In this document: piece after piece, positions 721 to 21,399 of the stretch
Layout of the letters: each line of letters begins with the position of its first letter
Position numbering within the stretch: position 1 is the first letter of the stretch
Assembly (NCBI GenBank): GCA_028692515.1
Contig: JAQUXG010000002.1
Location: forward strand, 1-22,887
Direction: 5' to 3'
DNA length: 22,887 nucleotides
From: Kiritimatiellales bacterium
Lineage (GTDB): Bacteria > Verrucomicrobiota > Kiritimatiellia > Kiritimatiellales > Tichowtungiaceae
Translations under genes and position numbers: made by a program
The notes under the pieces: model-generated
What the model was told of the DNA's origin: nothing
What the model saw: the letters and a program-made list of their open reading frames with translations, nothing else
The model's database searches: none

Positions 721-749
721 TTGACATCAGCTGAAATACTATTTATATA
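721..749 (+). promoter_or_regulatory. Sigma70-type promoter of the lexA-like/R-M operon
   Basis: A consensus -35 box TTGACA (721-726) and a -10 box TATATA (744-749) are separated by exactly 17 nt. The predicted start is near 756, about 29 nt before the ATG at 785. The match is close enough that transcription should be strong unless repressed. Confidence 0.75.
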
Positions 750-752
750 AAC

Positions 753-770
753 ACTGTTTTTTATAACAGT
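753..770. promoter_or_regulatory. Predicted LexA operator (SOS box, CTGT-N8-ACAG)
   Basis: ACTGTT-N6-AACAGT is a perfect inverted repeat. It contains CTGT-N8-ACAG (754-769), the half-site arrangement and spacing of the E. coli SOS box, with an A/T-only core. It begins 4 nt after the -10 box and covers the predicted transcription start, so a bound repressor would block initiation. The adjacent gene encodes a LexA-type protein, so autoregulation is the natural reading. Confidence 0.75.
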
Positions 771-784
771 ATATAAAGTAGGCA

Positions 785-1426
785 ATGAAAGAACTGACCG
801 CCAGACAGGCTGAAATCCATGACTTCATGGTTTGTTGGCAACGGGATAATGGCTTCCCTCCATCACAGGAAGAAATTCGTGACCATTTTGGGTTTGCGAG
901 TCCTAATGCCGTCCGAAGCCATCTGGCACTGATAGCAAAGAAGGGTCTTATCTGCCTGAACGCAGGCAAAGCACGTGGTATTCAGCTGAAAACCTCGACA
1001 CTGAGCGAGATGGGATCGAGTGACAAATCAATTCCAATCGTTGGAACCATCGCTGCCGGGGAACCGATTTTAGCAGAGCAAAATATCGAGAATCTATTGC
1101 CCATTCCCCGCGCTTTGTTTGGCGGAGGCGAACTGTTCGCCCTTCATGTAAAAGGCGACAGCATGGTACAGGCAGGCATTTTGAATGGCGACGTGGCGAT
1201 TATCCGCAAGCAAAGCCATGTTGAAAACGGGGAGATTGGTGCGGTGCTTCTAGGGCAAGATGCCACGTTAAAGCGGGTTTTTCTGACCTCCGGTTCCTTG
1301 CGGTTGAAAGCGGAAAACCCGACCTGCGATGATCTCGTTTACAATGAATCGAGTATTGAAAGCCCTCGCGTGATCGGTCGCTATCAGGGTATTGTTCGAA
1401 CCTCTGGATTAGGAAGTGTTTTGTGA
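785..1426 (+). CDS. lexA: LexA-type self-cleaving transcriptional repressor (S24 family)
   Basis: The 213-residue protein matches LexA over its whole length. An N-terminal winged-helix domain (about 1-70) begins LTARQAEIHDF, as in LexA. A hinge with the Ala91-Gly92 cleavage bond (GTIAAGEP) leads to a C-terminal peptidase domain with catalytic Ser126 (KGDSM) and Lys163 (ATLKR). LexA represses SOS genes until RecA filaments trigger cleavage at the Ala-Gly bond. Every residue needed for cleavage is present, so the protein should be DNA-damage responsive. The only operator seen lies on its own promoter. The gene overlaps the methyltransferase start by 4 nt (GTGA), which ties the repressor to a restriction-modification pair. 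Whether it is the main lexA of the host or a dedicated cassette repressor cannot be told from this window. Confidence 0.9.
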   Translation: MKELTARQAEIHDFMVCWQRDNGFPPSQEEIRDHFGFASPNAVRSHLALIAKKGLICLNAGKARGIQLKTSTLSEMGSSDKSIPIVGTIAAGEPILAEQNIENLLPIPRALFGGGELFALHVKGDSMVQAGILNGDVAIIRKQSHVENGEIGAVLLGQDATLKRVFLTSGSLRLKAENPTCDDLVYNESSIESPRVIGRYQGIVRTSGLGSVL

Positions 1427-4400
1427 ATATCGTCAATACAGCAAAAAATTACGGGTGTACTGATGTCGTCGATTTGGTGTGCGAGCCTACGCCAAGACAT
1501 TTAGACTATCTCGACCTTGTAGGAAGAACTCCAAAGAAACAGTTAAGGGTCGAGGCCGTCGCTGAATTTCAGTCCAGACCCTTGCTATATCTGGTGTCGG
1601 AATCCCAAGCCAAAACCCATGGCGGCGATGCAATTCTAGAACTCCAGCAAATATTGGCAAATCGCGGAGAAAGAGCCTACTTGGGAATCCTGAGTCCCGG
1701 CGAATTGAATGTTTATCCCGTCAATTTGGATCGCACCGCATTGGACGTAGCAACAGGATATAAAATCGGTAAGAATGATCCCGCCGCCTGTCAGTTTTTC
1801 CAAGACATTGCCTGTGGGACATTCATCTTGGAAGGGCAGCCCACGACTGCAGATTATGTCTTTAAGACCATTCATGATCTGATGACGGAGTCGTCCAAGC
1901 GTTTGATCGGAAAGTTCGAATTGAATCCACTGGATGTATTATCGTTCCTTGGTCGTGCGCTGTTCTTCCGGTTCCTATGGGATCGAAGGATTGTTCGTCT
2001 ACGGGAACTAGAGGACATTTGTCCCGGTGCCGCCGCGCCGAGCGACTGCTTCAGGAACGTGAAGAGTTGCGTGGCAACCTGCAAGTGGTTGGATGAAACC
2101 TTTAACGGCGACCTGCTGCCCTTGTCCGATACATATCAGAAGGTTTTTTCGGAAGCTGGTGACCAGACGGAACGGGAGTTGTTTCGGCATTTGCAGGCGA
2201 TTATCGAGGGATGGGAGCATATTGGACAGGGGTCGTTCCAGCCGCAACTACCCATTGACTGGGGGGACTTCGATTTTTCCCATATTCCAATTGGTGTCTT
2301 GAGTCAGGTCTATGAAAATTTCAGTCGGGCGTGGGATGGAGAACAGGCCGTGGCAACAAGCGTTTTCTATACCCCGAAGAACATTGCGAGCTATTTGGTC
2401 GATGATGCATTCGAAGGTGTTTCGGAAAAGAGCTCTGCCAAAATATTAGATCCAAGTTGCGGCGCAGGCATCTTTCTAATTTTGGGATTCAGGAAGCTTG
2501 TCGCGGCACGTTGGGAGATAGAGGGAAAAAGACCCGATACAACAACAATACAATCAATCCTCTATAATCAAGTTCGGGGTTTTGACGTTAGCGAATCCGC
2601 TTTGCGTTTAGCGGCACTATCGCTCTACATCACCGCAATCGAACTGAATGACTCTCCCCGGCCTCCTAAAAAACTAAAGTTTCCCGACCCGCTCAAAAAC
2701 CGGGTACTCTTCAATCATCGCAAATCGGAAGAGAAGGATTCTAAGCAATTTGTTCTAGGTAGTCTTCGCCCCGACCTTTCCTCCGATTTTAATGGCCAAT
2801 TCGATCTGGTGATTGGAAATCCTCCATGGAGTCGCTTGAAGAGTGACAAGACCATTGAAAAGGCCGAAGCAAAAAAAATCAACCAAACGCACAACTCCGC
2901 ATTCACGAAAATCACACGAGAGGCCTTGGTTGATCGTGGTTTTTCCGATGTGGCAAAAAACTATACAAATCCTGACAACAATCCTGACCTTCCGTTTTTA
3001 TGGGCGGCTACAAGGTGGGCAAAGCCAAAAGCCATTATTGCCATGACATTGCCAAGTCGCATTTTTCTAAAGCAGACGAAGCCGGGCATTCAGGCTTCAA
3101 ATGCCATTTTGCGCGGTATTGAAATCACAGGAATCCTGAATGGTTCAAATCTTTCCGACACCGAAGTTTGGCCAAAGATGAATCAGCCTTTCATGCTGTT
3201 CTTTGCTCGGAACTCTGTGCCACAGAAAGACCATCGGTTTTATTTTTCCACCCCACACCTCGAGCAACAATTGAACGAAAAAGGGCGTATTAGAATCGAC
3301 TATAGCTCCGCCAAGCCAGTTTCAGCTGATCAGATCGTTAAGCAACCATGGCTGCTTAAAACTCTGGCCACAGGTACTGCGTTAGACGCCGATGTTATGC
3401 GTAAACTGGAGGAATTGAAATGGCCAACGGTTAGGTCATTCTGGGATGACAATAATCTTTATTCTGGATTGGGCTATAACAGGTCTTCGGGGTTGAAACA
3501 GGAGCCTGCTGACTTCATGCTGGGTCTTCACGACTTTGTTCCTCCTGTGGACAACGGGTTTTCCGTGGATAACGAACGGTTTGCTGAGTTTGAGCCGAAC
3601 TGGACGTCAGGAGCGCCTACATTACACCTTCCGCGAAGTTCTAGATTATACGCACCTCCTTTATTGATTATTCCCCAGTCTCCGGGAGAGTCCCGCAAAT
3701 CGCCTAAATCATGGATTGTCAGACAACCTATTGCGTTTGACCAAAGCTATTACGGTTTTTCCGGACATGGGTTAAAATCTTCGACGCCTCCGATTGCATT
3801 ATTGCATTTAATAACTCACTCCGACCTGTTTGCTTATCATGTGCTGATGACTAGTTCTAGAATGGGTGCTGAAAGAAGAACTTTTGTAAAAGATAATGTG
3901 GAGTGCTTCCCGTTCGCCAATACGGGAGAGCTATCGGAGAACCAACGAACGCGTCTGGTCGACCTGTCTCATCAGTTGGAACGGGCAGAAAAGAAGCCCT
4001 GGAAGGGAATAAACGATTTTATTTTCGATCTTTACGAACTGGATCAATATGACCGTCAGGTGGTTAAGGATACCTTGGAAGTTTCTGCGCCATACAAGAA
4101 ATCGCGCAACCGAGCCAACGCTTCGCCCAAAAAGAGCGAGCGGGAAAAATTCTATGCCGAACTACAGAGGTTGCTTGCGCCATCTTTTGACGTAACCGGA
4201 GAAAAAGTCACTATCTGTGGAATCAGCCAGAATGCATCTATTGCACGATCTCCCTGGCAGTTATTCTGGGTGTCCTCATCAAGAAATACATCCACCCTTC
4301 AACAAGATTTACAGGGCCTGCTTCCACAAGTTTTGGAAAATGCCAACAAGCACGGATGTAGCCGCATGGTCGTCCATGGCGAGAACTGTTTGCTGGTGGG

Positions 4401-4503
4401 GATTCTTAGCCAATATCGCTACTGGACTCCTAGCCGAGCTCGTTTGTGTGCTTTGGATATTTTGCGGAACCATATGGATACATTTCCGGTGGAGAACGGC
4501 TGA
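1423..4503 (+). CDS. Large N6-adenine DNA methyltransferase (type II / IIG-like)
   Basis: This 1026-residue protein is a class I SAM-dependent DNA methyltransferase. SAM-binding motif I is DPSCGAG (343-349). Catalytic motif IV is NPPW (466-469), with a preceding FDLVIG strand. The order I then IV and the size match the Eco57I/PglX-like branch of N6-adenine methylases. About 340 N-terminal residues precede the catalytic domain, and a C-terminal half (roughly 600-1026) would hold target recognition; its segment near residue 863 (NDFIFDLYELDQYDRQ) resembles the C-terminal helical region of that branch. I see no clear PD-(D/E)xK site in the N-terminal part, so cleavage probably belongs to the next gene. 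The GTG start overlaps the lexA-like stop by 4 nt, and the stop shares one base with the next ATG (TGATG), so the three genes look translationally coupled. The target site cannot be read from sequence. Confidence 0.88.
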   Translation: MNIVNTAKNYGCTDVVDLVCEPTPRHLDYLDLVGRTPKKQLRVEAVAEFQSRPLLYLVSESQAKTHGGDAILELQQILANRGERAYLGILSPGELNVYPVNLDRTALDVATGYKIGKNDPAACQFFQDIACGTFILEGQPTTADYVFKTIHDLMTESSKRLIGKFELNPLDVLSFLGRALFFRFLWDRRIVRLRELEDICPGAAAPSDCFRNVKSCVATCKWLDETFNGDLLPLSDTYQKVFSEAGDQTERELFRHLQAIIEGWEHIGQGSFQPQLPIDWGDFDFSHIPIGVLSQVYENFSRAWDGEQAVATSVFYTPKNIASYLVDDAFEGVSEKSSAKILDPSCGAGIFLILGFRKLVAARWEIEGKRPDTTTIQSILYNQVRGFDVSESALRLAALSLYITAIELNDSPRPPKKLKFPDPLKNRVLFNHRKSEEKDSKQFVLGSLRPDLSSDFNGQFDLVIGNPPWSRLKSDKTIEKAEAKKINQTHNSAFTKITREALVDRGFSDVAKNYTNPDNNPDLPFLWAATRWAKPKAIIAMTLPSRIFLKQTKPGIQASNAILRGIEITGILNGSNLSDTEVWPKMNQPFMLFFARNSVPQKDHRFYFSTPHLEQQLNEKGRIRIDYSSAKPVSADQIVKQPWLLKTLATGTALDADVMRKLEELKWPTVRSFWDDNNLYSGLGYNRSSGLKQEPADFMLGLHDFVPPVDNGFSVDNERFAEFEPNWTSGAPTLHLPRSSRLYAPPLLIIPQSPGESRKSPKSWIVRQPIAFDQSYYGFSGHGLKSSTPPIALLHLITHSDLFAYHVLMTSSRMGAERRTFVKDNVECFPFANTGELSENQRTRLVDLSHQLERAEKKPWKGINDFIFDLYELDQYDRQVVKDTLEVSAPYKKSRNRANASPKKSEREKFYAELQRLLAPSFDVTGEKVTICGISQNASIARSPWQLFWVSSSRNTSTLQQDLQGLLPQVLENANKHGCSRMVVHGENCLLVGILSQYRYWTPSRARLCALDILRNHMDTFPVENG

Positions 4504-5198
4504 TGTCAATTGGCTTTTTCACAAAAGGAATCGACTTCGAACTGCCACATCCGCCGATCGATGTCAGGGTGGTTTTGCTAATTTGCAGGGTATTCCAAGA
4601 AGCATGGCTACTACTGAAAAAATATCCTCCGACCAACTTTAATATTCAAACGGCAGGTGAAGACACGATAACGGAAGTTCTGGTTGGAATTATTGAGAGT
4701 CGTCTGCGAATTTCCGGCGAGGTAGAGGGGTTCAGTAGTGCATTGTTTGGCAAGGTCATACGAGACTGTAAGATCACGAATTTCAACAAAGCAGCTCCCG
4801 ACAAAATGCCAGATATTTTTTTCGATCTTCGCCGGGAACATTTGTCGGTTTTATCTGAACAGGACGGACTTTTTGTTGAGTGCAAGCCTGTCGATTTCGA
4901 ACATCCTGTTTATTCTTGCTACTGCAAAAAAGGACTAATTCGCTTCGTGAATGGCGATTATGCATGGGCAATGCAGCAGGCGCTAATGGTTGGATATGTA
5001 AAGCATCCATACTCGTACACAAACCTCTCTACAGCCCTTGACCTTGAGGGTCATAAAATTGACCTAAATACAATAAGCCACTGTACGGGTGCTGGAGGAG
5101 TCCTGTATCAATCAGTGCATGATAGAACCTTTCAGTGGCTGGAAGATCGGGGCGTGGCCTGCTCAATAGAGGTTTCTCACCAATGGCTTCCCTTATAG
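4503..5198 (+). CDS. Predicted PD-(D/E)xK restriction endonuclease
   Basis: I chose the ATG at 4503, which shares a base with the methyltransferase stop (TGATG) and follows a GGTGGAG-like ribosome site; an in-frame ATG at 4446 lies inside the methyltransferase. The product has 231 residues. It shows a PD-(D/E)xK nuclease pattern: an early acidic helix (AGEDTITEVL, 51-60), Pro103-Asp104 (MPDIFFDL), then a hydrophobic strand ending in Glu126-Cys-Lys128 (GLFVECKP). A conserved-looking stretch GLIRFVNGDYAW and ALMVGYV follows (about 134-156). These metal-binding residues are typical of type II restriction enzymes. Its position directly after a DNA methyltransferase supports the role. I do not recognise a named family, so specificity is unknown. 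It is the last gene of the cassette; repeat debris begins immediately after its stop. Confidence 0.75.
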   Translation: MSIGFFTKGIDFELPHPPIDVRVVLLICRVFQEAWLLLKKYPPTNFNIQTAGEDTITEVLVGIIESRLRISGEVEGFSSALFGKVIRDCKITNFNKAAPDKMPDIFFDLRREHLSVLSEQDGLFVECKPVDFEHPVYSCYCKKGLIRFVNGDYAWAMQQALMVGYVKHPYSYTNLSTALDLEGHKIDLNTISHCTGAGGVLYQSVHDRTFQWLEDRGVACSIEVSHQWLPL

Positions 5199-5339: not shown

Positions 5340-5346
5340 AAAATAA

Positions 5347-5520
5347 ATGAATTGGAATGTGATCAGAGTGTGGGCGGCAATTCTGTTGTTGCTGGACGGG
5401 GCGTTCGGCTTGTGGAATCACCAGAAGGTTGAGGAGGTTGCGCCGAAGCTGAATATTCCGCGCATCGCACTGTTCGAGGCTCTGGCCGCACTGGTTCTGA
5501 TTCTGATCGGGCTCCTATAA
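5347..5520 (+). CDS. Small hypothetical two-helix membrane protein (57 aa)
   Basis: An ATG at 5347 opens a 57-codon frame ending with TAA at 5518-5520. The product has a hydrophobic segment at about 5-20 (VIRVWAAILLLLDGAF), a short polar stretch with QKVEEVAPK, and a second hydrophobic segment at about 40-57 ending IGLL. This two-helix layout with a polar loop is unlikely to arise by chance in such a short frame. The ribosome site is weak (GGAAA, 6 nt upstream) and overlaps the palindrome at 5325-5339. The last 6 nt overlap the end of convergent opgH. I do not recognise the family. It may be a small inner-membrane protein; expression is uncertain. Confidence 0.5.
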   Translation: MNWNVIRVWAAILLLLDGAFGLWNHQKVEEVAPKLNIPRIALFEALAALVLILIGLL

Positions 5521-7653
5521 GTAGAGTGCGGTCTGCGGTTTGCTTTCGATGACGTTGTACTGCCGCATGGCCATTCTCCACCACGAGGCGAGTTTTTCGG
5601 GCGGGAGTTTCCAGATCTGTTCGTGGAGCCACGCCATACATTCCGGGTTCATGAGCAGGGCCATCTGTTCGCGGCGGCTGAGGACGTCCGGCCCTTCTGC
5701 GATGACACGGTTCTGCAATGCAGAGAAGTAGGCGCTGTCGAGGCGGCGTTTGTTGTGCCGGCGCAGCAGGGCGATGTGGATGGCGTTGACGTAGGGGTCA
5801 ATGACGACCTGCATGAAGCCGTAGTTTTTGCGCAGCGGTTCGAGCGGCGGCACGTGCTGGTCGCATACGTCGAGACTGACTTTGAGTTCGGCCAGTTCGA
5901 CCGGCGGGTTGCTTTCCTGCGGGGTGATGAAGAGTTTCATCCGGCGCAGGGTGGTTCCGATGGAGACTTTGCTGAGCAGCAGAGAGACCGGAATGGCGGC
6001 GACGAGGCCGATGAAAATGGGACTCATCCACCAGAAGAAGGCCGGATTGATTTTCCACGCGAGCAGGCCCCAGAGAACGCCGATGAGGGTGTGTCCGCCG
6101 TAGGCTTCAAGTGCTTCGCCCCAGTCGATGCCGTCTTTGCCGCCGCGTCGTTGCGGCCCCCAGCCGACTTCCTGTCCGGCCATGACGCCTAGGACGAAGC
6201 GGGAGTGGAAGAGCATGAGGATGGGAGTGATGAGCATGGAGAAGAGATGTTCCAGAAAAACGCTGAGGGTGGCGCGCAGGCGTCCGCCGAACGGACGGGC
6301 GGTTTCTTTATGGCGGAGAACCAACAGCAGGCTGAGCAGTTTGGGGAGGAAGAGCAGGAAGATGGTGACGGCGAAGAGGGTGATGGCGAGCTGGTTGCCG
6401 CCGATGTCGAGCAGGGAGGAGAGGCCGACGTCGGAATCGAAGCTTCGGACAGGAAAGCGCGAGACGATCCAGAACTGGAACGTGCCGAGAATCATGAAGA
6501 TGAGCCAGAGCGGCGAGGAGAGATAGCTCATGATGCCGAGGGCGAGGTGCAGGCGGTTGATGGGGCGGACGTGCGGGGAGAGGACGAGCCAGCTGTGCTG
6601 AAAATTTCCTCGGCACCAGCGGCGGTCGCGTTTGGCCATGTCGAGGAGGGTGGGCGGGCCGCCTTCGTAGCTGCCGCCGAGTCCGTAGGCGAGCCAGACT
6701 TCGTAGCCGGCGCGGCGCATGAGGGCGGCTTCGACGTAGTCGTGGCTCATGAATTTGGCGCGCGGGGTTTTGCTGGCGGGCAGGTCGGGCAGGGCGCAGT
6801 GTTCGATGAAGGGGGCGAGGCGGATGATGGCGTTGTGGCCCCAGTAGTTTCCTTCGTCGGCCTGCCAGTAGTTGAGGCCGGCCTGGAAGAGCGGGCCGTA
6901 GAGCGATCCGGCGAACTGCATGCCGCGTCCGAAGAAGCTTTCGCTGAGTGCCTGAACGGGCGCGGCCTGTATGATGCCGGACTGCGGGTTGAGTTCCATG
7001 AGCTGTGCGAGTTTGACGAGGCAGTCGCCGCTCATGACGCTGTCGGCGTCGAGGATGACCATGTAGCGGTATTTGCTGCCCCAGCGGCGGCAGAAGTCGC
7101 TGATGTTTCCGCTTTTGCGGTTGAGGGCGGTTTTGCGTTTACGGTAGAAGATGCGGCCGAAGCCTTTGACCTGCTTGCAGAGTTCCGCCCAGGCCATTTC
7201 TTCTTCGATCCATTTGTTGGGATCGTTGGAGTCGCTGAGGATGAAGAAGTCGAAGTGGGTGAGTTGTCCGGTTTGTTCAACGGAGCGGTAGATGGCGCGG
7301 AGGCCTTCATAGACGCGGCTGACATCTTCGTTGAAGATCGGAAGGACGACCGCTGTGACGGGCAGCTCCGGCAGCTGTTCGGTCTGTTCGAGACGGTTGA
7401 GCAGGCGGGCCGGATCGCGGTTTCGCCAGAGAATGAAGAATCCGGTCAGCGCCTGGATGACTCCGAGAGAGACCGGGGTGAAGAGGATGGTGAAGAGAAT
7501 GAGGATGGCGATTTCACAACTGTTCATGTCGCCGCGCCAGAGGAGGTCGGCCATGACCCAGGTGGCCAGCGTGATGAGCAGGAAGACCAGCGAAAAGAAA
7601 AAGATCCGCCGTTGTACTTTGCGCGCGCCTGATAGGAGTTTTACAGCCGTCAT
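5515..7653 (-). CDS. opgH: Glucans biosynthesis glucosyltransferase OpgH (MdoH)
   Basis: This inner-membrane family 2 glycosyltransferase polymerises UDP-glucose into the backbone of osmoregulated periplasmic glucans. The 712 residues align closely in my memory with E. coli OpgH, for example SGNISDFCRRWGSKY and the segment around LDADSVMSGD. Catalytic landmarks are DAD (202-204), SHD (303-305) and the processivity motif RDRRW (342-346). Two membrane segments lie before the catalytic domain (about 16-37 and 46-76) and several after it. The E. coli enzyme has about 847 residues; the missing part is the N-terminal cytoplasmic domain before the first helix, the part reported to bind FtsZ. The ATG overlaps the stop of the preceding gene by 4 nt (ATGA), so translation is coupled to the opgG operon. 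Confidence 0.93.
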   Translation of the reverse strand: MTAVKLLSGARKVQRRIFFFSLVFLLITLATWVMADLLWRGDMNSCEIAILILFTILFTPVSLGVIQALTGFFILWRNRDPARLLNRLEQTEQLPELPVTAVVLPIFNEDVSRVYEGLRAIYRSVEQTGQLTHFDFFILSDSNDPNKWIEEEMAWAELCKQVKGFGRIFYRKRKTALNRKSGNISDFCRRWGSKYRYMVILDADSVMSGDCLVKLAQLMELNPQSGIIQAAPVQALSESFFGRGMQFAGSLYGPLFQAGLNYWQADEGNYWGHNAIIRLAPFIEHCALPDLPASKTPRAKFMSHDYVEAALMRRAGYEVWLAYGLGGSYEGGPPTLLDMAKRDRRWCRGNFQHSWLVLSPHVRPINRLHLALGIMSYLSSPLWLIFMILGTFQFWIVSRFPVRSFDSDVGLSSLLDIGGNQLAITLFAVTIFLLFLPKLLSLLLVLRHKETARPFGGRLRATLSVFLEHLFSMLITPILMLFHSRFVLGVMAGQEVGWGPQRRGGKDGIDWGEALEAYGGHTLIGVLWGLLAWKINPAFFWWMSPIFIGLVAAIPVSLLLSKVSIGTTLRRMKLFITPQESNPPVELAELKVSLDVCDQHVPPLEPLRKNYGFMQVVIDPYVNAIHIALLRRHNKRRLDSAYFSALQNRVIAEGPDVLSRREQMALLMNPECMAWLHEQIWKLPPEKLASWWRMAMRQYNVIESKPQTALYL

Positions 7654-8249
7654 GGGTTTCGTGTTTTCCAGAATAGAACGGTTAGAATAGCTAGAAAGAT
7701 CAGCCAGCCGACCAGTGCTTTGATGAGCGGCATGCGGTTGAGCGCATCCAGAGTGTCGTCGGCGAGTTCCGGAAGCAGACCGAGGTCGATCGGGCGCGGC
7801 ACCATGTTGCTGATTTGCAGTTCGGGACCGGCACGCATGAGGCTTTTGGACATGGCGGCTTTAAAGTCCTCGGGGATCTGGCGCGGCTCAAGAAAAGCAT
7901 ACGGCCAGCGCAGCGGGGCGTCGCAGAGGAAGAGCGCGACGCGGCCGTCGGCGGCGGTGAAGTTGGAGCTGCTTCCGGCGGGCAGTTCCATGATGCGGGA
8001 AAACCATTCGTCGAGTAGCCGGTTGGTTTCTTCGATCACGAGAGTGGAGAGCGGCGCAGGCGGGGGCTGGTTTTCCCAGCGGCGGCTGACGCGGCGCAGA
8101 ATCATGGTGATGAGATGTGCCCGGTGCAGATTGCTGTCCACCTCGTGAGCCCGCAGGTAGCTCTCGAGTTTTTCATAGGCGCTGTTCCATTCCTCCGGCG
8201 CGCCCCATGTGGGAACGAAGGGTTCTATGGCTTCCAGTAATAGGTCCAT
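7650..8249 (-). CDS. Hypothetical membrane-anchored protein between opgG and opgH
   Basis: I do not recognise this 199-residue protein. It is mostly soluble, with charged helices at about 20-60 (WNSAYEKLESYLRAHEVD) and a mixed central region. It has one C-terminal hydrophobic segment (about 173-194, LIKALVGWLIFLAILTVLFW) followed by a short basic end (KTRNP). This predicts a tail-anchored inner-membrane protein facing the cytoplasm. It overlaps opgG by 25 nt upstream and opgH by 4 nt downstream, so it is very likely made together with the glucan enzymes. One possibility is that it substitutes in trans for the N-terminal domain missing from OpgH; this rests on position and topology only, as no sequence similarity was established. 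Confidence 0.75.
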   Translation of the reverse strand: MDLLLEAIEPFVPTWGAPEEWNSAYEKLESYLRAHEVDSNLHRAHLITMILRRVSRRWENQPPPAPLSTLVIEETNRLLDEWFSRIMELPAGSSSNFTAADGRVALFLCDAPLRWPYAFLEPRQIPEDFKAAMSKSLMRAGPELQISNMVPRPIDLGLLPELADDTLDALNRMPLIKALVGWLIFLAILTVLFWKTRNP

Positions 8250-9724
8250 GTTTCGCTCCGCGGCAGTCCGTCCGACTGCAGAAAACAGCGCATTTCAACG
8301 GGCTGGGCAGGGTCAACCGGTTCCACATCAAAAAAGACGCGCCACGCATTGCCCAGATCGTTCCGCTGAAGATGCTTGCCCTTGAGGTTTCCGTTGGTGA
8401 GGGTGATGATCGGTTTTACGCTGTCCGGGTTGTTACGATCCATTCCCGGAGCGTTGCTGAAATCGAGCACAAACTTTTTGGAGCCGGGGTATTCGGCGGC
8501 ATCGCCGATCCGGGTGGACAGTGTTTTTGCCAGCGGCGGCAGAGCGGGATCATCTCTGAACCAGTGCAGACGATAGGAAAATTCAATCGGCTGTTCCGGA
8601 AGAAGCGGTTCGGCGGGCATCCAGAACGCGACGATGTTATCGGCGTATTCCATATTCGTCGGAAGTTCGACAAGACGGATTTCTCCGTTGCCGAATCCTT
8701 CGCCGGGCTCCACCCAGGTGCTGGGACGGTTCTGGTAGAAGGTTTCGAGGTCTTCGTAGTTGGAGTAGTTCCGGTCGCGCTGGAGCAGGCCGAACCCGAG
8801 CGGTTTTTCGTTGGCGAAGCAGGAGACTTTGATGCCGCCTTCGTTGGAGAGCGGACGCCACAGCCATTCATCTGCACTGGTGTGAACCAGCAGACCGTCG
8901 GAGTCGTGCACTTCAGGGCGGAAATCGCCGAACCGGGATTTGGAGAATTCTCCGAACCAGAACATGCTGGTGAGGGGCGCGAGGCCAAGGCCTACGACCG
9001 GCTGGCGGGCGAAGAGCGCCGCTTTGATTTCCATGACCGTGTCGACGCCGGGGATGACTTCCATTTCATAAGCACCCGCCAGGCTGGGGCTGTTCAGCAG
9101 GGCATAAATTTTGATGCGATCGGCGCGGCTGTCCGGTTTTTCGACCCAGAAGTCGGTGAATTCGGGGAATTCCTCGGGTGTTTTCCCAACGACATTAATG
9201 GCTAGGCCGCGGGCGGAGAGGCCGTAATGAAGTCCTTTGCCGAGTGCCCGGAAGTAGGACGCCCCCTGGAAGACGATGACTTCGTCGAGATATTCCATGG
9301 AGTTGAGCGGATAGTGAATGCGGAAGCCGTTGAACCCGAGGTCGTCGGGGAGGCGACCGTTGATTTTGACCTGCGAGTAGTTAAACAGGCTTTTTGAGAA
9401 AGGAATTGGTTCCTCCCGTCCGTCTTCGATGGAATTTACCGTGATATGGCCGTTTTGAGGGCCGCCGCGATGAACGAACTGGAGCTGGAAGGGGAGCCGT
9501 TCCATGCGCCAGATGGCCGACTTGGGATCAAAGCGGACATTGCGCATATCGTCATAATTGAAATTCTGCAATGCCTCAGGCAGGGAGCGGTCTGACGGCT
9601 GATAGGGCGCGGCGGCCAGATTCTGCGCCCGGTTTTTGAGCACATTGAAATCAAAACGATCCTGTGCAGCACCTGTAAGCGTCGCACACAACAACACGGC
9701 CGGAACCCAAGAGTATTTATTCAC
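8225..9724 (-). CDS. opgG: Periplasmic glucans biosynthesis protein OpgG (MdoG)
   Basis: The 499-residue product is close to the usual length of OpgG (511 in E. coli). It acts in the periplasm in building or branching osmoregulated periplasmic glucans. An N-terminal signal peptide (MNKYSWVPAVLLCATLTGAA, cleavage likely near residue 20) precedes the family start FDFNVLKNRAQNLAAAPY. Further family features are LPEALQNFNYDDMRNVRF and WRMERLPFQLQFVHRG, and a large beta-sandwich pattern follows. The start is GTG at 9724; no strong ribosome site is visible, but the signal peptide begins there. The gene leads the three-gene operon opgG-hypothetical-opgH. Its stop lies 25 nt inside the next gene. OpgD is a paralogue, but pairing with OpgH favours OpgG. 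Confidence 0.92.
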   Translation of the reverse strand: MNKYSWVPAVLLCATLTGAAQDRFDFNVLKNRAQNLAAAPYQPSDRSLPEALQNFNYDDMRNVRFDPKSAIWRMERLPFQLQFVHRGGPQNGHITVNSIEDGREEPIPFSKSLFNYSQVKINGRLPDDLGFNGFRIHYPLNSMEYLDEVIVFQGASYFRALGKGLHYGLSARGLAINVVGKTPEEFPEFTDFWVEKPDSRADRIKIYALLNSPSLAGAYEMEVIPGVDTVMEIKAALFARQPVVGLGLAPLTSMFWFGEFSKSRFGDFRPEVHDSDGLLVHTSADEWLWRPLSNEGGIKVSCFANEKPLGFGLLQRDRNYSNYEDLETFYQNRPSTWVEPGEGFGNGEIRLVELPTNMEYADNIVAFWMPAEPLLPEQPIEFSYRLHWFRDDPALPPLAKTLSTRIGDAAEYPGSKKFVLDFSNAPGMDRNNPDSVKPIITLTNGNLKGKHLQRNDLGNAWRVFFDVEPVDPAQPVEMRCFLQSDGLPRSETWTYYWKP

Positions 9725-15052: not shown

Positions 15053-17422
15053 ATGATGAAAAAAACGAAAAAATTTCTGCACCTATTCATGCTGACCGCC
15101 GGACTGGCCGCAGCGGGATTTTCTGCTCTGGTACTGAACGACATCCGCATTGAGAATGTGGACACCACCACTCTGGATGAATCATTTGTTCGCGCCTACA
15201 CTTCGCTGAGAGCCGGGCAGGAGATCGAAAGCGAATTTGAACTGAACGCGGCCGTTGCCCATGACGTCGACAATCTGCGTCGTTCCGGACGGTTTGCCTA
15301 TGTGCGTGCGCTGGTGGAGCAGGACGGCGACAAATACACACTGGTTTACAAAGTTGCCGCGCGGTTGCGTCTGCGGAAGATTGATATCATCGGTGCGGAC
15401 GGGATTGGCAACCGCAAAATCAACACCGAACTGGGATTGGCGCTTGGCGATTATGTGGATGAGGCTCTTGTCGGAGAAAAAGCACGCGCGGTCGAAGCGT
15501 ATTGCCGCAAAAATAAATATCCGGATGCTTCCGTTGTCTGGACGCTGACGCCGGACGAAAAAAACGGTACGGCCGCATTACAGCTGACGGTGGCTGAAGG
15601 GGAAAAGCTGCGGGTCAAACGGATCCGTTTTGAGGGGGAACGTCTTTCCGGCGATAGTTTCTGGCGGCGTCTGGTGCCCGACATCTTTCCTTCCCAAAGG
15701 ACGGCATCCCGCTATGAAGCGAAAGACCTGCGCAAGTTGATGCAGCAGAAGCAAACCTGGTGGATCACGCCGTGGTTTGGTGCGTACAAGCCGGAAATGA
15801 AAGAAGCGGATCTGGCGACCCTCCGTAAATTTTATCAGGATCGTGGTTTTCTCGATGTGAAGATTGATGGCCCCGAACTGAAACCACTGGGCGGCGGCAA
15901 ACTCGAATTGGTTTATCGCATCCAGGAAGGGGTTAAATATCAAATCGGCGCAGTCGGATTTGATGGAAATACTTTATATGCGGACAGTGAGCTTTCAAAA
16001 CAGATCCAATTGCAGTCCGGAGCTGTGGCCTCCCGTACGGCAATCGATATGGCAGCCGGTTCAGTGAATCGTTATTATGGCAACCGCGGATATATTCAAA
16101 ATGACGTGCGGCCGGTTATCGATACCGATGCCTCCGCCGGAACGGCAGCCGTTCGTTTCAGTGTTCGGGAGGGCGCTCAGGCCAACATCAATGAGATCGA
16201 CATCCGCGGGAATGAAAAAACCCGCGATGAAGTCATGCGCCGGGAGCTGGCGGTTTATCCCGGCGAGCTGTTCAATCAGCAGAAGGTGGAAACCAGCGAA
16301 AGCCGTCTGAAAAATCTGGGTTATTTTGAAACCGTCAGCAGCTCATACGCCCCGACCTCTGTGACCAACTGGTACGACCTTGCCTTCAAGGTGAAGGAAA
16401 AGGCCATGGGAAGTTTTCTGATCGGAGCAGGGTTCTCCAGTGTGGATAGTTTGGTTGGATTTGCCGAGTTGTCGCACGGCAACTTTGATATCAAACGCTG
16501 GCCGCCGGTCGGCGACGGGCAAAAGATGAAAATTCGCGTGCAGGCCGGTACGCAACGCAACGATCTGGAAGTATCCTTTGTTGAACCGTGGTTCCGGGAT
16601 CGCAAGCTGGCATTGGGTGTGGATGGTTATTATCGTACGGCCGGGTACTACAGCGATATGTTTGATCTTCAGACTCTCGGGAGTAAAGTATCGCTGACCA
16701 AGCCGATTTTCGATCCCTTCACTCGCGGAACCGTAAGCTACTCCCTTGAACAATTCAGTGTGGATAATCTCACGACCAATGCCCCGTCGGAGATTGCGGC
16801 GGATGAAGGCGCGCACATTAAATCCACAGTGGGTCTTAGCATTTCGCGAGACACCCGCGATCAGTTTTTCATCCCGACGCGCGGCAACTACAGTTCTGCC
16901 GGGGTCGAAGTGTCCGGGTTCGGCGGAGATGAAGAGATCTATATGCTTGAAGCCAAAACCTCGCAATTCTGGCCGGTTTTTGAAGATCACGTGTTCAACC
17001 TTAAGGGCGAAGTCCGTACGGTCGAAAGCTGGGGCAGCGGGAGCGTGCCGATCTACGACAGACTGTTCCTTGGCGGACCCCGTACCATTCGCGGGTTTCA
17101 ATATCGCGATGTCAGCCCTCGTTCTAATGATCCCGGATCTACCGAACCGATCGGCGGACTCAGCAGCTGGTACGCCACGGCGGAATACACCGTTCCGCTC
17201 TGGAGCAAAATCCGCGGCGCGGCGTTCTATGACATCGGCGCGGTTTCCTCGACCTCGTTTGACTTTTTCGCCGCGGATATTAACTCCAGCTACGGGCTCG
17301 GCGTACGCATTGATCTGCCGATGTTTCCACTGCGGTTGGACTATGCGATTCCGCACATTACCGATGCGAACAACACCGGCGGCGGCGGGCGGTTCAGTTT
17401 CCTGCTGGGATATTCGTTCTAG
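15053..17422 (+). CDS. bamA: Outer membrane protein assembly factor BamA
   Basis: BamA is the Omp85 pore that folds beta-barrel proteins into the outer membrane. The 789-residue product has an N-terminal signal peptide (MKKTKKFLHLF...). A periplasmic part of about 400 residues has POTRA-like repeats (for example LRKIDIIGADGI, YQIGAVGFDGNTLY, INEIDIRGNEKTRDEVMRRELAVYPGE). The C-terminal barrel carries the conserved loop motif GGPRTIRGF (IRGF at 679-682; VRGF/Y is usual) and ends in phenylalanine, as barrel proteins do. Two adjacent ATGs (15053 and 15056) are possible starts after a GGTGGAG ribosome site. The order bamA-skp-lpxD matches many Gram-negative genomes. Confidence 0.96.
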   Translation: MMKKTKKFLHLFMLTAGLAAAGFSALVLNDIRIENVDTTTLDESFVRAYTSLRAGQEIESEFELNAAVAHDVDNLRRSGRFAYVRALVEQDGDKYTLVYKVAARLRLRKIDIIGADGIGNRKINTELGLALGDYVDEALVGEKARAVEAYCRKNKYPDASVVWTLTPDEKNGTAALQLTVAEGEKLRVKRIRFEGERLSGDSFWRRLVPDIFPSQRTASRYEAKDLRKLMQQKQTWWITPWFGAYKPEMKEADLATLRKFYQDRGFLDVKIDGPELKPLGGGKLELVYRIQEGVKYQIGAVGFDGNTLYADSELSKQIQLQSGAVASRTAIDMAAGSVNRYYGNRGYIQNDVRPVIDTDASAGTAAVRFSVREGAQANINEIDIRGNEKTRDEVMRRELAVYPGELFNQQKVETSESRLKNLGYFETVSSSYAPTSVTNWYDLAFKVKEKAMGSFLIGAGFSSVDSLVGFAELSHGNFDIKRWPPVGDGQKMKIRVQAGTQRNDLEVSFVEPWFRDRKLALGVDGYYRTAGYYSDMFDLQTLGSKVSLTKPIFDPFTRGTVSYSLEQFSVDNLTTNAPSEIAADEGAHIKSTVGLSISRDTRDQFFIPTRGNYSSAGVEVSGFGGDEEIYMLEAKTSQFWPVFEDHVFNLKGEVRTVESWGSGSVPIYDRLFLGGPRTIRGFQYRDVSPRSNDPGSTEPIGGLSSWYATAEYTVPLWSKIRGAAFYDIGAVSSTSFDFFAADINSSYGLGVRIDLPMFPLRLDYAIPHITDANNTGGGGRFSFLLGYSF

Positions 17423-17443
17423 TTAAGAAAGGCACGGGGGATT

Positions 17444-18070
17444 ATGAAAAAACTTATACTGTTGAGCGTCGCGGTTCTGGCGCTGACCGGATCATCTTTT
17501 GCCGCCGAAAAAATTGTTTTTATCGATCTTGAGCGGACGTTCAACGAGTTCTACAAGACGCAGCTGGCCAAATCGAAAGTGGAGGTTCAGCAGAAGGACA
17601 TTGAGGCTGAGCGGAAAATCATGGTGGATGAAATGACCGTCATAACGGATCGGATCGATGTACTCCGGAAAGATGCCCGGGACACGACACTGTCCGATGA
17701 AATTCGTGACAGCAAGCGCTTGCAGTATGAGGAGCAGTTGCTGAATCTGCGCGCCAAACAGAAGGAATTGGACGACTTTACAACCCGGCGGCAGCAGCAG
17801 CTTCAGGCGCAGGTCGCCCGGATGAGCCAGACGGTCATGGATGAGATCCGGCAGGTGATTGTTGAATATGCTAAAAAAGAAGGGATCACCGCGGTCATCG
17901 ATAACTCGACGCGGCGTGCCGCGATCGGAGTCTTTATTTATACTCACCCGGATGCGGAAATCACCGATGCAATTCTGACGGTCTTGAACAGCAAGCGGCC
18001 AGACACGATGGATCTTTTATTAGAAGACAGCTCGGAAACAAACAGCCCGGCGGCGGGTGGAACATTATGA
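17444..18070 (+). CDS. skp: Periplasmic chaperone OmpH/Skp family
   Basis: Skp-family chaperones hold unfolded outer-membrane proteins in the periplasm on their way to BamA. The 208-residue product has a clear signal peptide (MKKLILLSVAVLALTGSSFA), the family start KIVFIDLERTFNEFYKT, a long charged coiled-coil stretch (about 45-130), and a C-terminal core with VIVEYAKKEGITAVIDNS. This matches the OmpH layout, somewhat longer than E. coli Skp (161). It lies 21 nt after bamA and overlaps lpxD by 4 nt, the classic bamA-skp-lpxD arrangement. Confidence 0.93.
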   Translation: MKKLILLSVAVLALTGSSFAAEKIVFIDLERTFNEFYKTQLAKSKVEVQQKDIEAERKIMVDEMTVITDRIDVLRKDARDTTLSDEIRDSKRLQYEEQLLNLRAKQKELDDFTTRRQQQLQAQVARMSQTVMDEIRQVIVEYAKKEGITAVIDNSTRRAAIGVFIYTHPDAEITDAILTVLNSKRPDTMDLLLEDSSETNSPAAGGTL

Positions 18071-19098
18071 AGCTGGCAGAACTGGCGATGCAGATTGGAG
18101 CCTCCTTCGATGGCGATGAAAGCATCGAGATTTCCGGCGTTGCCGGTATTCGCGAAGCGGAGCGGGGCGATGTGTCGTTTATAGCCAATCCGCGTTATGC
18201 AACGGAGGCCTCCTCAACCAAGGCATCGGCGGTCATTGTTGCAGAAGATTGGACGGCGGACTGTCCGGCAGTATTGCTTCGCGCGAAGAATCCGGATGCA
18301 GCCTTTGCTCAGGCGGCCGTGCTGTTTTATACCCCGGCACCGGCACCCGCCGCAGGAGTTCACCCCACTGCGGTTGTGGCGAGCGATGTTGAGCTGGGTG
18401 AAGGGGTCTCTATCGGCCCGTTGTGTGTGGTCGAGTCCGGCGTGAAAATCGGGGCCGGGGCAGTTATCTCGGCGCAGTGCTATGTTGGATTCAGCTCTGT
18501 GATCGGAGAAAAGAGCTTTCTTTATCCGCAGGTTTCTCTGCGTGAATTCACAAAAATTGGAACCCGGGTGATCGTTCACAACGGAACTGTGATCGGTAGC
18601 GATGGGTTTGGATACTCTGTTGATGCGGAGGGTATTCGCACAAAAATTCCTCAGATCGGTTGTGTCGAAATCGGAGATGATGTCGAAATCGGTGCCAATG
18701 TGACTATTGACCGTGCGCGGTTCGGTAAAACGAAAATCGGCAACGGCGTCAAAATCGACAATCTGGTTCAGATTGCCCACAACGTGGTGATTGGCGATCA
18801 TGCGGTTCTGGTGGCGCAAGTCGCTATCGCAGGCAGCACATCCATTGGCGAAAAAACAATTTTTGCAGGGCAGTCGGGTGCCGCAGGGCATCTTAAAATC
18901 GGGTCGCACGTGATTGTTTTGGCGGGCTCCGGAGTTATCAAGGATATTCCTGACGGGGCTTGTGTTATGGGTATGCCTGCCATTCCGGCAGCAAAACAGA
19001 AAAAGGCTCATGCCGGCATTATGCTGCTTCCAAAACTGAAAGAGCGTGTTACCGCGCTTGAGGAGAAAATCCGCAAACTGACGGATTCGTCCGTCTGA
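18067..19098 (+). CDS. lpxD: UDP-3-O-acyl-glucosamine N-acyltransferase LpxD
   Basis: LpxD adds the N-linked acyl chain in the third step of lipid A synthesis, in the cytoplasm. The 343-residue product matches E. coli LpxD in length (341). An N-terminal uridine-binding domain includes ISGVAGIREAERGDVSFIANPRY. A left-handed beta helix of hexapeptide repeats follows (VKIGAGAVISAQ, VEIGDDVEIGANVTID), with catalytic His238 in VQIAHNVVIGDH, and a C-terminal helix. The ATG overlaps the skp stop (ATGA). It closes the block that begins with tRNA-Gln; I see no convincing terminator just after it. Confidence 0.96.
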   Translation: MKLAELAMQIGASFDGDESIEISGVAGIREAERGDVSFIANPRYATEASSTKASAVIVAEDWTADCPAVLLRAKNPDAAFAQAAVLFYTPAPAPAAGVHPTAVVASDVELGEGVSIGPLCVVESGVKIGAGAVISAQCYVGFSSVIGEKSFLYPQVSLREFTKIGTRVIVHNGTVIGSDGFGYSVDAEGIRTKIPQIGCVEIGDDVEIGANVTIDRARFGKTKIGNGVKIDNLVQIAHNVVIGDHAVLVAQVAIAGSTSIGEKTIFAGQSGAAGHLKIGSHVIVLAGSGVIKDIPDGACVMGMPAIPAAKQKKAHAGIMLLPKLKERVTALEEKIRKLTDSSV

Positions 19099-19350: not shown

Positions 19351-21399
19351 ATGGCTAATCCGACAGAACTGTTTGGTGAAAACGTATTCAGCATGCGCGT
19401 CATGCGCGAGCATCTTTCCGAGAAAACCGTCAAATCGCTTGAAGCGACCATTAAGACCGGAAAGAGTCTTGATGCCGGCATCGCCGATGAAGTCGCCGAG
19501 GCCATGAAAGAATGGGCCGTTGCGAAAGGCGCAACACACTTCACCCATTGGTTCCAACCACTGACCGGCTCCACTGCCGAAAAACATGACTCCTTTATCG
19601 TTCCGGACGGACAAGGCTCTGTCGTTTGCAAATTCTCCGGCGCAGAGCTCATTCAGGGCGAACCCGATGCCTCCAGCTTCCCGTCCGGCGGCCTGCGCGC
19701 CACCTTCGAAGCCCGCGGTTATACCGGCTGGGATCCCAGCAGCCCCGCCTTCATCAAAGACAATACCCTCTGCATCCCGACCGTATTCTGCGGTTATCAC
19801 GGGGAAGCGCTTGATAAAAAAACTCCGCTCCTGCGCTCCGGCAAAGCTCTCGGTGTTCAGGCCGAACGTTTGGCCAAACTGTTCAAAGTTCCGTGTAAGC
19901 AGCAGACCTATTCGACTCTCGGCGCCGAACAGGAATATTTCCTGATCGACGAAGAGATCTACAACGCCCGTTTGGACCTCCAGCAGACCGGTCGTACGCT
20001 CTTCGGTAGCAAACCGGCCAAGCATCAGCAGATGGAAGACCACTACTTCGGCGCCATCAAAACCCGCGTAATGGCCTTTATGGAAGATCTGGACTCCGAA
20101 CTTTGGAGACTGGGCGTTCCGTCTAAAACCCGCCACAACGAAGTGGCTCCCGGCCAGTTCGAAATGGCGCCCATTTTCGAAAGCCTCAATCTGGCGGTTG
20201 ACCACAACATGATCACCATGGAAGTAATCCGCAAAACGGCCGAACAGCATGGGTTCGTCTGCCTGTTGCACGAAAAACCCTATGCGGGCGTCAACGGATC
20301 CGGCAAACACAACAACTGGGCCCTCAGTGGACCGGATGGTAAAAACTGGCTCTCGCCCGGCGACAACCCGCACGAAAATGCCAAGTTTATGACCATGATC
20401 TGCGCCCTGATGAAAGCGGTCGATACACACGCCGACATTTTGCGCGCTACCGTTGCAACCGCCGGCAACGATCACCGTTTGGGTGCCAACGAAGCGCCGC
20501 CCGCTATCATTTCCATCTTCCTCGGTGATCAGCTCACCGACATCATCGAGCAGATTGAAAAAGGCGGAGCCAAGAGCTCCAAGTCCGGAGGACAAATTAA
20601 CCTCGGCGTGGACACTCTGCCGGCTCTGCCGCGCGGCAACACCGACCGGAACCGCACCTCACCGTTTGCCTTCACCGGCAACAAGTTCGAGTTCCGCGCC
20701 GTTGGATCCAACCAGAGCTGTGCCGGTTCCAACGTAGCGATCAACACGATCGTTGCCGAAGCACTCGACGAAATCTGCACCAAGCTCGAAGCCGATGTGA
20801 AAGCCGGTAAGAAATTCAACGAGGCTCTGCAGACTCTTCTGGCCGGCCTCATCAAGAAGCACAAGAAGATTCTCTTCAACGGCGACAACTACACCGAAGC
20901 CTGGGCCAAAGAAGCGGCCAGGCGCGGTCTGCCGAACGTCAAGAAGACGCCAGATGCTCTCAAGGCGTTTAACACGCCCAAAGCGAAGAAGCTCTTCGAA
21001 AAATACGGCGTACTCTCCGAGAAGGAACTGCACTCCCGCTTCGAAATCTACAATGAAACCTACGAGAAGATCATTGAGATTGAAGCCGGTGTCACGCTGA
21101 ACATGGCTAAAACCATGATTCTGCCGGCTGCCATGACGGCTCAGGCTGAGTTGGCCGCCTCCATCAAGGCGATTGGAACGGGCGGCGTAGTCACCGGAGC
21201 CAAAGCGCAACTCAAAGCCATGTGCACAGAGACTGAGAAGCTCTACAAGGCGGTTGCTGCGCTCGAAAAGGCGCATGGTGCTGAGAAGCTGATCGCTGCC
21301 ATGGGCAAAGTTCGCGCTTCGGCTGACGCACTCGAAACCATGGTCCCGGATGATATCTGGCCGCTTCCGACCTATGCCGAAATGCTGTTCATGATGTAA
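19351..21399 (+). CDS. glnN: Glutamine synthetase type III (GSIII)
   Basis: It makes glutamine from glutamate, ammonia and ATP, the entry point for nitrogen. The 682 residues are far longer than GSI (about 470) and fit GSIII (about 700). GSIII features include THFTHWFQPLTGSTAEKHDSF (start near residue 60), GAEQEYFLID (191-200, metal-binding Glu), HNEVAPGQFEMAPIF, VNGSGKHNNWALS (about 314-326), RLGANEAPPAIISIFLG and NRTSPFAFTGNKFEFRAVGS (about 434-453). A GSIII-specific helical C-terminal extension follows. The ATG is 7 nt after an AAAGGAG site. It is flanked by a candidate sigma54 promoter and a strong terminator, so it is probably monocistronic and nitrogen-regulated. Confidence 0.95.
   Translation: MANPTELFGENVFSMRVMREHLSEKTVKSLEATIKTGKSLDAGIADEVAEAMKEWAVAKGATHFTHWFQPLTGSTAEKHDSFIVPDGQGSVVCKFSGAELIQGEPDASSFPSGGLRATFEARGYTGWDPSSPAFIKDNTLCIPTVFCGYHGEALDKKTPLLRSGKALGVQAERLAKLFKVPCKQQTYSTLGAEQEYFLIDEEIYNARLDLQQTGRTLFGSKPAKHQQMEDHYFGAIKTRVMAFMEDLDSELWRLGVPSKTRHNEVAPGQFEMAPIFESLNLAVDHNMITMEVIRKTAEQHGFVCLLHEKPYAGVNGSGKHNNWALSGPDGKNWLSPGDNPHENAKFMTMICALMKAVDTHADILRATVATAGNDHRLGANEAPPAIISIFLGDQLTDIIEQIEKGGAKSSKSGGQINLGVDTLPALPRGNTDRNRTSPFAFTGNKFEFRAVGSNQSCAGSNVAINTIVAEALDEICTKLEADVKAGKKFNEALQTLLAGLIKKHKKILFNGDNYTEAWAKEAARRGLPNVKKTPDALKAFNTPKAKKLFEKYGVLSEKELHSRFEIYNETYEKIIEIEAGVTLNMAKTMILPAAMTAQAELAASIKAIGTGGVVTGAKAQLKAMCTETEKLYKAVAALEKAHGAEKLIAAMGKVRASADALETMVPDDIWPLPTYAEMLFMM

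Follow-up and report, generated by a model that had tools for sequence, protein, structure and literature searches.

The window analysed here, the first 22,887 nucleotides of contig JAQUXG010000002.1 of a Kiritimatiellales bacterium (assembly GCA_028692515.1), contains a three-gene operon in which a gene for a LexA-type repressor (lexA) precedes genes for an N6-adenine DNA methyltransferase (M) and a PD-(D/E)xK nuclease-type protein (R). We consider it likely that this is a restriction-modification (R-M) cassette under a private SOS switch, repressed by its own LexA and released through RecA-driven self-cleavage of that repressor. The cassette LexA probably keeps the operon turned down until DNA damage or invasion, and damage would then trigger the release of M and R. 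An earlier note on this DNA had proposed an SOS-type switch for both proteins; the dedicated LexA and the conserved operator and cleavage residues described below sustain its repressor side, whereas release upon damage remains a prediction.

The repressor possesses both a LexA DNA-binding domain and an S24 domain (PF01726, 63.1 bits; PF00717, 92.5 bits), and it matches TIGR00498 with 173.3 bits against a cut-off of 110.95. The Ala-Gly bond, the Ser and the Lys are conserved at the same columns in 39/39 aligned LexAs, 38 from cassettes and one from locus L056, in agreement with the intact cleavage bond and Ser/Lys dyad that the earlier note had read in the window. As a RecA gene was found in the window's genome, an arriving LexA would have its trigger there.

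One genome per species was scanned with an alignment of M, yielding 58 loci. A lexA gene of the same clade lies directly 5′ of M in 37 of them, so the pairing is not unique to this strain; uniqueness would have spoken against the switch. R is found 3′ of M in 53/58 loci; the remaining five (L044, L045, L066, L081, and L084) lie on contigs that stop at the end of M or shortly beyond it. According to their record titles, the lexA-bearing loci belong to seven phyla, Thermodesulfobacteriota, Verrucomicrobiota, Acidobacteriota, Pseudomonadota, Bdellovibrionota, Nitrospinota, and Lentisphaerota, with some "Deltaproteobacteria" titles also reading as Myxococcota in tree-based labelling. The cassette is rare in the sampled genomes: at E≤1e-100, M was detected in 5 of the 387 genomes from the window's phylum, one being the window's own, and in 3/395 genomes of a second phylum, all already known carriers. 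The isolates Malonomonas rubra DSM 5091 (L047) and Rhodoferax sp. U11-2br (L070) are among the carriers. Three of the four other carriers in the sample of the window's phylum have a LexA match ahead of M, and one has none.

In a quick tree, the cassette LexAs (n = 38, the window's and those of the 37 loci) formed one clade, starred in the tree, with a Shimodaira-Hasegawa-like approximate likelihood ratio test (SH-aLRT) value of 96; 33 host LexAs and that of L056 fell outside it. Identity of the clade members to the window's sequence falls as low as ~38%. Against a profile of the cassette LexAs themselves, 26 re-found cassette copies scored 267 to 328 bits and other LexAs at most 193 bits; a LexA ahead of M in one further genome (L186) was intermediate, at 205 bits. 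Pairwise distances of the three proteins are correlated (33 rows; Mantel r of 0.94 for LexA-M, 0.97 for R-M, and 0.93 for LexA-R).

A single promoter was seen ahead of lexA-M-R, and a perfect palindrome lies over its start (O2; Table 1), as the earlier note had described in the shorter form CTGT-N8-ACAG. Its label of SOS box must be amended: the palindrome is of LexA type, but it represents the cassette's own operator type and not a host SOS box. The motif ACYGY-N8-RCRGT was found no more than 100 bp upstream in 38 of the 39 sequences, exactly in 28 and with one mismatch in 10; the sole miss is L056, which has a host-type lexA. By comparison, shuffled upstream regions gave on average 0.03 exact matches and 0.74 matches with one mismatch among the 39, and the cassette operator type was carried by 0/34 host lexA genes exactly and by 1/34 with one mismatch. 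A motif-free best-palindrome score proved uninformative for many loci, and the motif test was used instead. A chance origin of the palindrome was also considered: its occurrence is near chance level in the window's genome alone, but chance is ruled out across loci. Operator pairs with the 15-bp offset of O1 and O2, with at most one mismatch each, are present in 10/17 core-clade relatives. Where the window has TTGACA, several core-clade relatives have hexamers of the TTGCTT, TTGCCT, or TTGCCA type at a comparable position. The ends of lexA and M and those of M and R overlap within the single operon, and the gene coordinates confirm this part of the earlier description.

Table 1. The lexA-M-R operon and its switch region (positions in the window)
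Feature	Position	Strand	Description
-35 element	721..726	+	TTGACA; promoter reading
Operator O1	738..755	+	Degenerate second operator, ACTAT-N8-ACACT; two mismatches; 15 bp upstream of O2; overlaps -10
-10 element	744..749	+	TATATA; 17-bp spacer from -35
Operator O2, predicted	753..770	+	ACTGTTTTTTATAACAGT; exact motif match (ACTGT-N8-ACAGT); three bases 3′ of -10
lexA	785..1426	+	Dedicated LexA-type repressor, 213 amino acids; Ala91-Gly92, Ser126, Lys163
M	1423..4503	+	N6-adenine DNA methyltransferase, 1026 amino acids; DPSCGAG, NPPW
R	4503..5198	+	PD-(D/E)xK nuclease-type protein, 231 amino acids; PD 103-104, ExK 126-128

The window's genome has one exact copy of the operator, and thus no LexA regulon is seen there; with up to one mismatch, 24 places were counted, compared with 23 in a reversed control. 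Several operons sharing the same box, the mark of an SOS master regulator, were not found; by this test, the protein is a LexA by homology but not such a regulator. Of seven TACTGC-class genomes searched, six have the palindrome at the cassette and nowhere else, and one has it twice. The picture is mixed for ACCGT-N8-ACGGTA, for which control counts were of similar size: in eight genomes, it was found at the cassette only in three (G072, G075, and G081), at the cassette and other places in two (G051 and G070), and only at other places in three (G068, G071, and G074), in which the cassette operators are mismatched.

Both half-sites of the operator change symmetrically, giving three classes, ACTGT, ACTGC, and ACCGT. 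LexA residue 41 is Ser or Thr with 8/8 ACCGT operators and with 2/30 others; the tree resolves this association into two separate switches, each concordant, which is too small a number for a statistical test. Ser42 is associated more weakly with C at base 5. A GTTC-N4-GAAC box, which we take to be the Verrucomicrobia LexA motif, precedes 5/34 host lexA genes, indicating that cassette and host use different codes in those genomes. A Geobacter genome (G051) harbors two lexA-M-R cassettes of different operator class: L040 has ACTGC with one mismatch, and L072 has ACCGT. Two other LexAs are encoded in the same genome. The recognition helices of the two cassette repressors differ as well, making them a natural pair of private switches. 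Genome G073 has seven LexA_DNA_bind matches, among them that of the cassette; some are weak.

No second LexA was found in the window's genome (86% complete), and 13 congeners (G001 to G013; 66 to 98% complete) gave neither a LexA_DNA_bind match above the cut-off nor an S24 peptidase; matches below the cut-off, at 20 bits, occur in two of them (G003 and G011). Judging from these sequences, the window's genus seems to have no SOS repressor. S24 genes are present in 13/26 genomes of the sister family. Among the lexA-cassette genomes searched, 23/32 have an additional LexA that belongs to a different clade, which supports the earlier note's view of a cassette led by its own repressor. The single clade of the cassette LexAs, their conserved operator with one exact site in the window's genome, and the finding of no second LexA there and of none above the cut-off in the congeners together argue that the protein is a dedicated controller and not the SOS regulator of the host.

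The G+C content is 0.45 to 0.49 in the cassette and 0.55 to 0.64 in its flanks, and the cassette is read as foreign to this host and the contig as native. Misbinning of the contig was rejected, as the adjacent MdoH-like gene shares 86 to 89% identity with those of five congeners. Comparison with congeners gave no clean empty site: two of them carry a sequence like that at 5343-5513, but ~2.6 kb from the MdoH-like gene. For a phage origin, no relative of R or M was confirmed in viral contigs, and phage records yielded no relative of M. A survey of 20 selected neighboring proteins from 9 loci, several of them without any match, identified defense or mobile functions next to L036 (Gabija), L047 (TniQ, with a weak match in L070), and L072 (type IIG enzyme); L040 lies beside a type IV CRISPR-like DinG helicase. 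A self-contained, horizontally moving cassette is the best explanation.

M matches N6_Mtase with 44.2 bits, and both DPSCGAG, with a nearly invariant Pro, and NPPW are found across 21 M relatives; it thus has the S-adenosylmethionine and catalytic motifs of a type II R-M DNA methyltransferase. PADLOC IIG models match M across its methylase part. The predicted structure of M is a poor model that leaves the N-terminal part unassigned, and it was not used. Among solved structures, the M profile matched a single chain, DrdV (7lo5; E 3.6e-5, positions 290-351). DrdV is a type IIG enzyme with the nuclease in the same chain, whereas R is encoded here by a separate gene and has a candidate PD-(D/E)xK core. 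The cassette appears to be of a type II-like R-M kind, with a predicted restriction activity.

In the mechanism that we propose, a LexA dimer would bind ACTGT-N8-ACAGT over the promoter start and repress lexA, M, and R together, and the gene overlaps would couple translation. RecA filaments arising from chromosome damage, or from the ends or single strands of restricted or incoming DNA, would be the trigger. LexA would then cut itself at Ala91-Gly92, as its conserved chemistry suggests, M and R would rise together, and fresh LexA would finally shut the operon down and reset the system. On arrival in a host that lacks this LexA, the operon would at first be fully active, with M made ahead of R, until autorepression settled it. 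Somewhat more speculatively, R may itself cut incoming or under-methylated host DNA, the ends of which would load RecA, so that the private LexA cleaves itself and M and R go up at once. We put this loop forward tentatively; if it exists, it would both arm the defense in infection and rescue an under-methylated host, even without a host SOS repressor. Under this reading, co-resident cassettes such as those of the Geobacter genome, the operators of which have drifted apart, would each keep a private line.

Two features of the family weigh against control by DNA damage. First, some of its members have no LexA or a broken one: the 21 loci other than the 37 comprise 15 without lexA, 3 with lexA wrecks (L027, L031, and L041), 1 with the host-type lexA (L056), and 2 whose contigs begin inside M. 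LexA is thus not obligatory in the M-R family, a correction to the earlier reading. L027 and L031 have a decayed lexA remnant, yet full-length M and R matches, and represent natural unrepressed versions. Second, distant plasmid M-R relatives (L188:3671-7713, L189:3515-7578, and L187:3543-7749) have a different gene in the lexA slot, annotated as XRE family on two rhizobial plasmids and coding for an unknown 151-amino-acid protein on a Pseudomonas plasmid. Pfam support for the XRE annotation is below the cut-off or absent; the relationship of the R proteins was confirmed by profile, with 104 to 171 bits. Damage control would therefore be one solution among several for an M-R pair, and the regulator slot appears to be exchangeable.

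Such exchangeability would also be expected if LexA were a timer first and a damage sensor second, that is, a substitute for a C protein that allows a burst upon entry and then a low steady level by autorepression, with cleavage mattering little. The one promoter ahead of lexA and the essentially single target in the window's own genome and in 6/7 TACTGC-class genomes fit this explanation as well. However, the Ala-Gly bond, Ser, and Lys, which a pure autorepressor could do without, are kept in all 39 LexAs, even the most divergent ones, and we hold a mere timer to be rather unlikely. SOS-triggered self-killing, in which released R would attack the host and M would serve as the antidote of an abortive or addiction system, could draw on the joint rise of M and R when LexA senses damage and on the toxin-antitoxin genes near two distant plasmid relatives. 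It is improbable, given that one transcript would carry both genes, with M ahead of R, so that M would increase along with R, and that M and R matches are full length in two loci with a wrecked lexA. Finally, it is hardly credible that an ordinary host lexA merely sits beside an R-M system, although the protein is, as the earlier note had allowed, the only LexA found in the window's genome: no regulon accompanies it, with one exact operator, 13/13 congeners have no LexA above the cut-off, which led us to reject a host master lexA, and the gene order recurs in 37/58 loci, with an other-clade LexA present in 23/32 of the lexA-cassette genomes searched.

A literature search of open papers, with REBASE and subscription papers outside its scope, found no description of a lexA-led R-M operon, and the earlier note knew of none. 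Both a lexA gene heading its own operon and dedicated R-M regulators are known; a self-cleaving LexA as R-M controller would be new. C proteins are small and have no self-cleaving domain, whereas the regulator in this locus is a 213-amino-acid LexA. In the cyclic-oligonucleotide-based anti-phage signaling system (CBASS), damage-responsive repressor cleavage by the CapH/CapP pair reportedly releases an anti-phage operon. There, a separate protease cuts a helix-turn-helix repressor, whereas the single LexA of the cassette would cleave itself. The LexA of Escherichia coli, which we take to account for some of the matched solved chains, has the same two domains and cleavage chemistry. It is a global regulator, whereas the cassette LexA has essentially one target and its boxes vary between cassettes. 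The E. coli operator is given as CTGT-N8-ACAG in PMC8565304.

According to a 2025 review, R-M systems are controlled by promoter methylation, methylase repressor domains, antisense RNA, and C proteins; the word LexA has 0 occurrences in its main text (PMC12707154). In type II systems with C proteins, such as PvuII and BamHI, a regulator gene within the R-M locus likewise autoregulates its own promoter, but C proteins activate and then repress, according to the same review (PMC12707154), whereas the regulator here is a repressor-type LexA. RptR, from a type I R-M/DarTG2 defense island, is similarly a dedicated repressor encoded with an R-M locus and has a palindromic site conserved alongside it (PMC12255303). 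It differs in being a small protein with a TAGCTA site, and the words SOS, RecA, and S24 are absent from that paper. The lexA2-imuA-imuB-imuC operon of Pseudomonas putida (PMC3901139) begins with the gene for a second LexA, which controls this operon and has a regulon distinct from that of LexA1, but the payload is a mutagenesis polymerase set rather than R-M. A LexA-controlled family would tie restriction directly to RecA activity, and its cassettes would carry a private SOS switch into hosts without LexA and offer a series of naturally occurring LexA/operator pairs that differ in specificity. Such a family also makes testable whether restriction is induced by DNA ends of its own making.

Elsewhere in the window, the MdoH-like glucosyltransferase gene (read from sequence) and MdoG (PF04349) adjoin the cassette at 5515-9724. 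A row of Omp85, OmpH-like, and LpxD genes occupies 15053-19098, and a type III glutamine synthetase is encoded at 19351-21399.

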